DNA of 64,000 bases from Flavobacteriales bacterium (GTDB taxonomy: Bacteria > Bacteroidota > Bacteroidia > Flavobacteriales_C > GCA-002722245), in contig PBEC01000001.1 of the NCBI GenBank assembly GCA_002717515.1, positions 66,960 to 130,959 on the forward strand, given 5' to 3'. Each line of letters begins with the position of its first letter. Position 1 is the first letter of the stretch. A program made the translations under genes and the position numbers. Below are positions 719-60,960 of this stretch, one piece after another. A model generated the notes under the pieces. That model was given only the letters and a program-made list of their open reading frames with translations. It made no database searches and was not told where the DNA came from.

Positions 719-1057
719 CTAGTAGATTTCTCCGAAATATTCCAAGATTCCTTGTTTCATTAACTTCAATTGTTCACCTGATTTTAGATTTGGTAATGGT
801 TTTATTGTTTCATAGTATGGCCATCCGTCTTGATCTGAATGTGAAAGCTTGTAAAAACCAAAAGGTTCTAAAATTCTGCAGATTGCAATGTGCATGATGT
901 CCAATTTTTGATCCTTTGTAAATTCCTGAGCTCCTTTTCCCAGTTCTTGAACACCAATTAGAAACAGTATGCCTTGAATATCGAGGTCTCCTCCAAAATT
1001 GATTTCTATCTTGCTTTTAAGTTCTTTCCATTTCTTTTCAAAATCACTATCAATCAT
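719..1057 (-). CDS. Conserved hypothetical cytosolic protein
   Basis: The product has 112 residues from the ATG at 1057; an in-frame TTG at 1069 is less likely to be the start. There is no signal peptide or membrane segment. The sequence is amphipathic and helical at the start (DSDFEKKWKELKSKIE) and has a compact, globular composition with a GIQELGKG-like turn and an aromatic-rich end. It lies 15 nt downstream of the DUF5686 gene in the same orientation and is probably co-transcribed with it. I recall similar small uncharacterised proteins in Flavobacteriia but cannot assign a function. Confidence 0.65.
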   Translation of the reverse strand: MIDSDFEKKWKELKSKIEINFGGDLDIQGILFLIGVQELGKGAQEFTKDQKLDIMHIAICRILEPFGFYKLSHSDQDGWPYYETIKPLPNLKSGEQLKLMKQGILEYFGEIY

Positions 1058-15836: not shown

Positions 15837-15856
15837 AAAACAATAAAATAAAAAAA

Positions 15857-15883
15857 AGCTACCAATCAGGTAGCTTTTTTTTT
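15857..15883 (+). terminator. Intrinsic terminator after tsf
   Basis: The stem AGCTACC / GGTAGCT (7 bp, 5-nt loop) is followed by eight T residues. Confidence 0.9.
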
Positions 15884-16713: not shown

Positions 16714-17277
16714 ATGACTGAAGAAGTACAGTTTGAATTGGAGTCTGCACAAGAAGCAATGCAGAAATCATTAGAAAGATTAGATCAGGAGCTAACAAAA
16801 ATTAGAGCAGGTAAGTCAAATCCATCAATGCTTTCAAGTGTAAAAGTTGATTATTATGGAGCTCTTACACCTTTGGCTCAGGTTGCCAATGTAAGTACAC
16901 CTGATACAAAAACATTAACGGTTCAGCCTTGGGAAAAAAGTATGTTGGAGCCAATATCAAAGGCGATAATTGATTCGAATTTGGGTTTGAATCCGCAGAA
17001 TAATGGAGATGTAATTATTATTTCCATACCTGCACTTACAGAGGAGAGAAGAAAAGATTTGAGTAAACAGGCAAAAGCAGTTGGAGAGGATGCTAAAGTT
17101 GCCATTCGATCGGCACGTAAAAACGCCAACGATGGAGTTAAGGCTCTAAAGGATGACGGGTTACCAGAGGATGCTCAGAAAGATGCTGAAACAAAAGTTC
17201 AGAATTTAACCGATAAATATGTCGCAAAGGTAGATTCAATTATTGCTGCCAAAGACAGGGATATTATGACGGTATAA
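16714..17277 (+). CDS. frr: Ribosome recycling factor
   Basis: The product has 187 residues, standard size. With EF-G it splits post-termination ribosomes. It has the tRNA-mimicking two-domain organisation: ELTKIRAGKSNPSMLSSVKV at the start of the helical bundle, YGALTPLAQVANVSTPDT in the small domain, and RRKDLSKQAKAVGEDAKVAI. It is second in the pyrH-frr unit and followed by a terminator. Confidence 0.97.
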   Translation: MTEEVQFELESAQEAMQKSLERLDQELTKIRAGKSNPSMLSSVKVDYYGALTPLAQVANVSTPDTKTLTVQPWEKSMLEPISKAIIDSNLGLNPQNNGDVIIISIPALTEERRKDLSKQAKAVGEDAKVAIRSARKNANDGVKALKDDGLPEDAQKDAETKVQNLTDKYVAKVDSIIAAKDRDIMTV

Positions 17278-58936: not shown

Positions 58937-59308
58937 ATGAGAATTGATAAATACTTATGGTGTGTTCGTTTGCAGAAAACGAGATCGAAAGCTACTAAAT
59001 TTATTGAGGCGGGTAATGTCAAGATTAATGGCGAGGAAATAAAAAAGGCAAGTAAAGAAATAAAGATAGATCAAAATATTTCAATTCGTTTTCAGCCCAT
59101 ATGGAGAACATGGGAGGTCTTGGATATTCCCAAGTCAAGGGTTGGAGCCAAGCTTGTTCCTGGTTTAATTCGAGAAATAACTCTTGAAGAAGATTTGGCA
59201 GTACTGGAGGAGGTTCAAAGACAAAATCGCGAAAATAGATTGAAAGGTATGGTTGGCCGACCAACAAAAAAGAACCGAAGAGATTTGAATGATTTTTGGG
59301 GGGATTAA
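58937..59308 (+). CDS. S4-domain RNA-binding protein (Hsp15-like)
   Basis: The product has 123 residues. The S4 domain spans the first 60 residues (MRIDKYLWCVRLQKTRSKAT, AGNVKINGEEIKKASKEI). A basic C-terminal tail (KGMVGRPTKKNRRDLNDFW) resembles that of Hsp15, which rescues stalled 50S-peptidyl-tRNA complexes. Its end overlaps the convergent S4-domain gene by 4 nt. Confidence 0.9.
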   Translation: MRIDKYLWCVRLQKTRSKATKFIEAGNVKINGEEIKKASKEIKIDQNISIRFQPIWRTWEVLDIPKSRVGAKLVPGLIREITLEEDLAVLEEVQRQNRENRLKGMVGRPTKKNRRDLNDFWGD

Positions 59309-59520
59309 GTGGTAATTAAAATAGTAACATCTTGGTCTTGAATGGCAATTACATCTCCAATTATTAATTTACATCTTTTTCTTGTTTCAATTTTTGAATT
59401 TCGTAAAATATGACCATCACTAATCATTTGATTTGCAGCTCCGCCTGATTCTGCAATACTCAGAAGTTTCAATAGTTTATTCAGTTCTATGTGTGGTTTT
59501 CCTTTTAGGCTAAATTCCAT
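59305..59520 (-). CDS. Small S4-like RNA-binding protein (YbcJ type)
   Basis: The product has 71 residues, single S4-like domain. Key segments: PHIELNKLLKLLSIAESGG and AANQMISDGHILRNSKIETR, then KRCKLIIGDVI. This is the YbcJ/YaaA-like minimal S4 protein group, thought to bind rRNA. It is convergent with the Hsp15-like gene. Upstream of it begins the gene-free stretch with the tandem RNA element. Confidence 0.88.
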   Translation of the reverse strand: MEFSLKGKPHIELNKLLKLLSIAESGGAANQMISDGHILRNSKIETRKRCKLIIGDVIAIQDQDVTILITT

Positions 59521-59657
59521 GATGTAAAGATGTGAAAAATATTCAAAATACCTTTCTTGTTCAAGAAATATCTTTTAAATGTATTTAAATAGTTGTTATT
59601 CAATACTTTATTGATTTTTGAGTGTTTTTAGATTATGTGTTAGTTAATCCTTTTTGC

Positions 59658-59688
59658 TTGAGATACTCTTAATTAAGTGTCATCTTTG
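59658..59688 (+). promoter_or_regulatory. Possible promoter of the tandem RNA
   Basis: TTG (59658-59660), a 20-nt spacer, CATCTTTG (59681-59688), one mismatch from TAnnTTTG. Predicted transcription start is near 59693. Confidence 0.45.
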
Positions 59689-59794
59689 TTTATGCGATTT
59701 TGCAACGACGCTATTTAAGGTCGGTTTAAATTTAAAAAGTTGGTTAAGTTTTTTTAACCCATGATGATATAAAAGAAGCATTCTTTAATGCATA

Positions 59795-59855
59795 GGGTAA
59801 AGATTGATGGCTATCAATCTAGTTAAGGGGTGAGCGGGGTTAGGCTCCCGCTCAC
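59795..59855 (+). repeat. Structured module, copy 1
   Basis: 61 nt beginning GGGTAAAGATTGAT. Hairpin A: 59801-59808 with 59813-59820, loop GGCT. Linker AGTTAAGGG. Hairpin B: 59830-59838 with 59847-59855, loop GTTAGGCT. It is followed by AATTTT. Confidence 0.9.
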
Positions 59856-59880
59856 AATTTTAGCTTCTTTCGAAAAATAA

Positions 59881-59941
59881 GGGTAAAGATTGATTTAAAT
59901 CAGTCTAGTTAAGGGGTGAGTGGGGTTAGGCTCCCACTCAC
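59881..59941 (+). repeat. Structured module, copy 2
   Basis: 61 nt, same layout. Hairpin A: 59887-59894 with 59899-59906, loop TTAA and one T-G pair. Hairpin B: 59916-59924 with 59933-59941, where a C-G pair of copy 1 is replaced by T-A. Start-to-start distance is 86 nt. Confidence 0.9.
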
Positions 59942-59948
59942 ATTTTTT
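59916..59948 (+). terminator. Hairpin B of copy 2 plus T-tract: likely terminator
   Basis: A 9-bp GC-rich stem followed by A and six T residues. It would end the small RNA; copy 1 has only a weak AATTTT after its hairpin. Confidence 0.7.
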
Positions 59949-59991
59949 CATACCTGTATTATATTAAATCCAAAATTTAAAAAGCAACATT

Positions 59992-60960
59992 TCACTCCAG
60001 TAATTTTTTAATTGCATCGTATATCATTTTTGAGCTGATTTTTTTTATGCATCCCTCAGAGGATTGCTTACAGTATTTACCATGTTTTGAACAAGGTTTT
60101 TTCGAAATAGGAGAAATCACAGTTAAAGATTCTTTTTTTGTTAAGTAAGGAGAAAAGCCAAGCGATGGTTTTGTGCAACCCCAAAAAGAGAGTATTGGGG
60201 AGTTAAATGCCGAAGCAATATGCATCATGCCTGTATCATTTGTTAGAACAAGCTTACTTTCTTTAATTAAATAAGCCGATTCTTCAAATGAAGTATTTCC
60301 ACAAAAATCAAAGGTGTTTTCTGAACAGGTTTCTTTTAAAATTTGTTGACTCAATTTTTTGTCTTCTGATCCTCCCAACAAAATGACTGGTAAATGGATA
60401 TGAGATATCACTTCAGAAATTTGAGTGGAGGATAATTTTTTGTTTTCATGAGTTCCGCCAATACACCAAACGATGTAATCTTGATTAGTATCAAAATTAA
60501 CTTCAGGTGAACCGCTTATGAAATAATCAATTCCTTTTTTGTCATTTTGAACATTTAGATTTTTTAAAGATTCAAAATATCGATCTACAACATGATTTTT
60601 TAGTAAGTCAACACCAAAATTGATTAGAAGAAACCTTTTGAAATTTTTTTTGAGGTAAACATTGGATTTTACGTTCAGTTGTGATCGGATTTTTAAGGAT
60701 CTTAGGTTGTTTTGAAGATCAATAATTCGGTCGTATTTATTCGATTTTAAAACATCAAGAAGTTCGGTATTATTTTTATTTAGAGCATATATTTTGTTTA
60801 TGTAAGGATTTGAGGTTAAGAGGCTTTTGTAATTTTCCTTCGTAAGGAAATCAATCTCGGTATTAAGTTGTTGTTTTAAGCATCTAATTATTGGAGTAGT
60901 TAAAATGATATCTCCAATTGAGCTATATCTGATTATTAATATTTTAAGTTTTTCTTTCAC
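59992..60960 (-). CDS. Glycosyltransferase family 9 (heptosyltransferase-like)
   Basis: The product has 322 residues from a GTG start. The N-terminal IIRYSSIGDIILTTPIIRCLK and the C-terminal LVLTNDTGMMHIASAFNSP with SFWGCTKPSLGFSPY match GT9 enzymes that add heptose or related sugars to the LPS core. The end is Cys/Lys-rich (KKPCSKHGKYCKQSSEGC), common in the Bacteroidota branch. TAATTTTG (60978-60971), an exact -7 match, lies 10 nt before the start. No other LPS gene is adjacent. Confidence 0.9.
   Translation of the reverse strand: MKEKLKILIIRYSSIGDIILTTPIIRCLKQQLNTEIDFLTKENYKSLLTSNPYINKIYALNKNNTELLDVLKSNKYDRIIDLQNNLRSLKIRSQLNVKSNVYLKKNFKRFLLINFGVDLLKNHVVDRYFESLKNLNVQNDKKGIDYFISGSPEVNFDTNQDYIVWCIGGTHENKKLSSTQISEVISHIHLPVILLGGSEDKKLSQQILKETCSENTFDFCGNTSFEESAYLIKESKLVLTNDTGMMHIASAFNSPILSFWGCTKPSLGFSPYLTKKESLTVISPISKKPCSKHGKYCKQSSEGCIKKISSKMIYDAIKKLLE

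Follow-up and report, generated by a model that had tools for sequence, protein, structure and literature searches.

The window, which denotes the whole 64,000-nucleotide stretch of Flavobacteriales DNA analysed in this study, harbours at 59521-59991 a gap between two minus-strand genes that contains no open reading frame of at least 50 amino acids, in keeping with the gene-free stretch described in an earlier note on this DNA. The genes flanking the gap (Table 1) encode an S4-domain protein and a glycosyltransferase of family 9 (GT9), with lysS, on the plus strand, following next beyond the latter. Inside the gap lie two direct repeats (59794-59861 and 59880-59947) of 88% identity and a start spacing of 86 nt, each comprising a module of two hairpins, A and B, with 19 nt of spacer in between. 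Read on the plus strand, toward the 3′ end of the GT9 gene, the modules are positioned as expected for an intergenic small RNA (sRNA): both neighbouring genes are encoded on the opposite strand, and the space between them is devoid of a conserved open frame. A small peptide was considered and rejected, the frame ATG GCT ATC AAT CTA GTT AAG GGG TGA of module 1 having no counterpart in module 2.

Table 1. Coordinates of features at the tandem-module locus (positions of the window)
Feature	Position	Strand	Basis
S4-domain protein, 71 aa (YbcJ/YaaA-like)	59305..59520	-	Pfam S4_2, E 2.6e-19; syntenic in genus
Candidate promoter CTTG-N20-CATCTTTG, Bacteroidota -33/-7 type, weak	59657..59688	+	8/10, not above shuffles
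Module 1 (sRNA unit 1), GGGTAAAG...AATTTT	59795..59861	+	direct repeat
5′ block GGGTAAAGATTGAT, module 1, putative seed	59795..59808	+	identical in 5/5 copies
Hairpin A, module 1: 8 bp, loop GGCT	59801..59820	+	fold, pair counts, RNAalifold
Hairpin B and weak T-tract AATTTTAG, module 1: presumably leaky intrinsic terminator	59830..59861	+	terminator scan
Module 2 (sRNA unit 2), GGGTAAAG...ATTTTT	59881..59947	+	direct repeat
5′ block GGGTAAAGATTGAT, module 2	59881..59894	+	identical in 5/5 copies
Hairpin A, module 2: 8 bp, loop TTAA	59887..59906	+	fold, pair counts, RNAalifold
Hairpin B and T-tract ATTTTTT, module 2: main intrinsic terminator	59916..59948	+	terminator scan
Glycosyltransferase family 9 (heptosyltransferase-like), convergent with RNA	59992..60960	-	Pfam Glyco_transf_9, E 1.8e-23; synteny

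Repeat comparison and folding agree on the anatomy that had been proposed before, that is, two modules 86 nt apart, each with hairpins A and B. The 14-nt 5′ block is composed of an unpaired GGGTAA and the 5′ arm of hairpin A (AGATTGAT); a short, single-stranded linker (AGUUAAGGG) connects to hairpin B, GC-rich in both modules, whose stem has 10 pairs when the closing G-U is counted (loop TTAGGC) and 9 pairs when it is not (loop GTTAGGCT). The two modules differ at 8 of 67 positions. The changes listed earlier were correct (loop A, GGCT or TTAA; A replaced by G on the 3′ side of stem A, giving a T-G pair; one double change of C-G to T-A in stem B), to which a single A/T difference in the tail is added.

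Occurrence in related genomes

Searched by BLAST against 100 relatives, the module gave convincing matches exclusively within the same genus (G004, 90%; G001, 82%; G003, 75%), the other matches listed being short and weak. Three of the four other genus genomes thus carry a single copy, always in the same position, flanked by the S4 gene and the GT9 gene; homologues in conserved synteny, which the note had asked for, thus exist within the genus. The fourth, G002, lacks the region, showing no match to S4, GT9 or DUF2461 and only a partial lysS; because its assembly is incomplete (77%), absence of the module there is uninformative. Different genes neighbour S4 in the sister genus. The gap from S4 to GT9 varies in length within the genus (L004 and L003 in G003 and G001; L002 in G004), with the module retained.

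A covariance model recovered exactly the five copies: 395 genomes of the class yielded no other match, and at family level there was likewise nothing further above noise. The model, in whose construction the window modules had been used, matched module 1 with 95.6 bits (E 1.1e-20) and module 2 with 93.1 bits. Three weak matches were dismissed, one as an ordinary terminator (L065) and two as unrelated sequence (L062, L066). With gathering scores as the threshold, no Rfam 15 family, Flavo-1 included, matched anywhere in the window, consistent with an element absent from Rfam; in 59500-60000 matches were at chance level only (L20_leader, 17.7 bits compared to a cut-off of 58.7).

The palindromic character of the modules and their presence in two copies would befit a mobile or repetitive DNA element (MITE, REP-like). 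We consider this reading extremely improbable, given that no further copy was found in the genome itself, in plasmids or in phages, and that the module invariably occupies one syntenic place; copy number and synteny thus speak against the known mobile repeat named earlier as grounds for abandoning the RNA interpretation. Pattern searching of genome and viral contigs also found no further module: of the hits inspected, L036 is a brief match attributable to chance, and L037 and L038 are two near-identical stretches in which the remainder of the module is missing.

Sequence divergence argues for selection. Copy 2 differs from the G004 copy at 7 of 67 positions (∼90% identity), although the GT9 proteins of the two genomes share just 40% identity and, outside the module, the intergenic gap gives no significant alignment between them.

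Retention of structure and strand preference

The region of both modules folds at -78.6 kcal/mol with a z-score of -4.8, a stability reached by none of 200 shuffled sequences, and the individual modules of the window genome have z-scores of -2.7 and -3.3. Among the relatives, G001 shows two mismatches in hairpin B, and its module alone folds no better than shuffles (z -0.9); the G003 module alone adopts a different fold. Across the five aligned copies (alignment A2), the structure is paired in 92.2% of cells, compared to 32-54% when the partners are slid, and RNAalifold arrived unprompted at the same 18 pairs. The modules had been characterized as covarying: retention of the structure is upheld by these counts, but covariation was overstated. 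Just one pair shows a two-sided change, the other changes are one-sided and lead mostly to G-U, and the covariation score was equalled by 69 of 500 shuffles, in a sample (five copies from one genus) nearly too small for a covariation test.

For the reverse strand, the paired share of cells is 83%. Eleven wobble cells are G-U on the plus strand and one is G-U only on the minus strand, these cells being non-independent of one another. Terminator scanning gave both hairpin Bs as intrinsic terminators on the plus strand (shuffles average 0.4 sites per region) and no sites on the minus strand. Wobble cells and terminators agree and together point to an RNA read from the plus strand. The earlier proposal of a structured plus-strand RNA under selection is supported, as are its synteny in relatives and its ending in predicted intrinsic terminators.

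Terminator-like hairpins

The 3′ intrinsic terminator expected of an intergenic sRNA is represented by two plus-strand terminator-like sites, as judged by sequence. The T-tract previously noticed after the last hairpin (ATTTTTT) is strong and scores as a plus-strand terminator; that of module 1 is weak, and because it is short the first terminator is probably leaky. Read on the minus strand, the hairpins lack a T-tract behind them, hence they are unlike an intrinsic terminator of the GT9 gene.

Hairpin B and its duplicate might simply serve as a terminator or insulator that stops plus-strand transcription before GT9, with hairpin A being incidental. Both hairpins are good terminators by the scan; in G003 the stem B is much changed yet hairpin and T-tract are retained; and a comparable GTGAG..CTCAC terminator hairpin exists at an unrelated place of G001 (L065). 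Strictest conservation, however, is found upstream of hairpin B, in the 14-nt 5′ block and in the linker's AGTTAA, neither of which a terminator needs, and the closest preceding end of a plus-strand gene lies as far away as 59308, 490 nt before the modules. We regard this explanation as decidedly unlikely.

The G001 hairpin just mentioned (G001:C31, L065, ∼1501-1559) has the similar terminator-like stem AAGTGAGTTG...CAACTCACTTTTTT, and the genus may have a preference for terminators with GTGAG/CTCAC stems. Elsewhere in the window, at 15850-15882, there is a perfect bidirectional terminator hairpin (AAAAAAAAGCTACC-AATCA-GGTAGCTTTTTTTT) that scored on both strands.

Promoter candidates

In flavobacteria, a -7 box of the form TAnnTTTG is established (PMC9723704). 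The best candidate in the window (59681), with its -7 box 114 nt upstream of module 1, scores 8/10, the level of nearly every shuffled sequence, and the best box before module 2 scores 7/10. A sigma-70 scan of the region returned none above chance, nor did the promoter scan of four genomes give any candidate above that level. The near-consensus promoter previously placed 100 nt upstream is hence not confirmed. The same applies to an RNA of ∼250 nt with its 5′ end at 59694: over the ∼100 nt of leader from that position no alignment to the relatives as a unit was obtained, and the promoter scores no better than chance, leaving the proposal unsupported.

Promoter-like sequences of the type TTG-N19/20-YATCTTTR are found just before GGGTAAAG in G001 (ATTG-N20-TATCTTTG) and G003 (TTTG-N19-CATCTTTA), again not above chance and in genomes that are close relatives of each other. 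Their -7 box begins 13 nt before GGGTAAAG, which would place the RNA start at or near the 5′ block.

Sequence conservation and candidate target sites

The 5′ block is invariant at 14 of 14 positions in the five copies, as is the linker's AGTTAA. Variation is seen in loop A (4 of 4 columns), loop B (4 of 6) and the 3′ arm of hairpin A (5 of 8). A fixed 5′ arm facing a 3′ arm that drifts while mostly still pairing is a pattern which fits a sequence-constrained 5′ end, such as a seed, within a hairpin, and does not fit a function vested in loop B.

The 8-bp dyad of hairpin A with its 4-nt spacer (AGATTGAT-N4-ATCAATCT) also has the look of an operator, and as it precedes the S4 gene, which is read from the opposite strand, it could be a DNA site for a regulator of that divergent gene. 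Drift of one arm mostly to G-U, with the other arm invariant, would however cost an operator its symmetry; the spacing between module and S4 start is anything from ∼115 to ∼330 nt in the genus; and hairpin B and the tail are conserved alongside the dyad. Such a role for the dyad appears very unlikely.

Loop B had been proposed as the conserved element of a sponge or ligand-binding RNA. The suggestion is weakened by loops differing from the window's GTTAGGCT in all three relatives (GATAGGCT, GTTAGGCC and ATTGAGTT), each with one module, and the repeated conserved binding loop expected of an RNA sponge was not found among the five copies. One may still envisage a longer independent RNA (∼170-250 nt) whose function depends on the two modules together, be it as a sponge with two sites or by binding a protein or ligand in tandem, considering that the modules stand in series, that the first terminator is weak and that the combined fold is far better than that of shuffles (z -4.8). 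Against it speak the single module of the relatives, the unconserved loop B and the unaligned upstream leader, and we judge it unlikely.

Complements of the 5′ block (CTTTACCC) before ATG were not enriched over the reversed control, and the target search consequently provides no support for the seed. Anywhere in the genome, the 14-nt complement with 2 mismatches showed a slight, non-specific excess, its nearest sites mostly inside open frames. A separate observation concerns G000:C14, where the same 37-nt sequence occurs at 867-903 (plus strand) and 17186-17222 (minus strand), inverted and ∼16 kb apart; the pair is possibly an inverted duplication.

Discussion

Based on the collective evidence, the locus is understood as a real, selected and structured element, most probably the gene of a genus-restricted, intergenic and trans-acting sRNA that measures ∼70 nt, carries a 5′ seed and has here undergone tandem duplication into siblings; we hold this interpretation with reasonable, though not strong, confidence. 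Each module would constitute a complete small-RNA unit of ∼67-75 nt, made up of an unpaired 5′ end GGGUAA, hairpin A, the linker and the terminator hairpin B with its U-tract, and the 5′ end of the RNA would fall at GGGUAAAG. Head-to-tail duplication of the unit in the window genome would have given sibling sRNAs. For the invariant 5′ block, a base-pairing seed acting in trans on mRNAs is the most likely role. The first terminator may be partly read through, its T-tract being short, so that some transcription would probably proceed to the second terminator and give a longer two-module RNA in addition.

The closest described arrangement is that of PrrF1/PrrF2 and the read-through PrrH in Pseudomonas aeruginosa (PMC4211561). 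In both loci, near-identical units stand side by side, the first with a terminator of its own, and read-through could give a third RNA. The likeness of two highly similar complete units in tandem applies at the level of the DNA (88% identity) and implies no sequence kinship: the PrrF RNAs are proteobacterial, iron-regulated and have known targets, and relatives of the window genome, unlike the PrrF pair, carry a single unit. An undescribed genus-level sRNA family, in which tandem duplication and a leaky first terminator yield ∼70-nt siblings and also a longer RNA spanning the two modules that has a separate function in the manner of PrrH, is an extension that we put forward as possible, if rather doubtful.

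Within the Bacteroidota, GibS of Bacteroides thetaiotaomicron (PMC7366714) shares with the module an intergenic location, conservation in one genus, a conserved 5′ portion and an intrinsic terminator. A conserved single-stranded 5′ seed has been demonstrated experimentally for GibS (PMC7366714); it is unstructured over 30-50 nt, whereas the module has ∼6 nt unpaired before hairpin A, and homology is not claimed. Rfp18 of Flavobacterium psychrophilum (PMC9723704) is, by description, similarly a structured Bacteroidota sRNA conserved within a genus, but it affects metalloprotease mRNAs with pairing predicted via its third stem-loop, unlike the 5′ seed considered here. Obvious Hfq and ProQ homologues are missing in Bacteroides, and the mode of sRNA action there is open (PMC7366714).

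The kind of system is already known and is not claimed as new. A little-studied lineage here gains a conserved small-RNA candidate that Rfam does not contain. With one copy in relatives and two in tandem in the window genome, the locus offers a clean natural case of sRNA duplication. The two window copies differ from the G004 copy at 7 and 8 positions, similar to the 8 of 67 between themselves, which implies that the duplication is about as old as the split of the window genome from G004, or that one copy was lost in G004.
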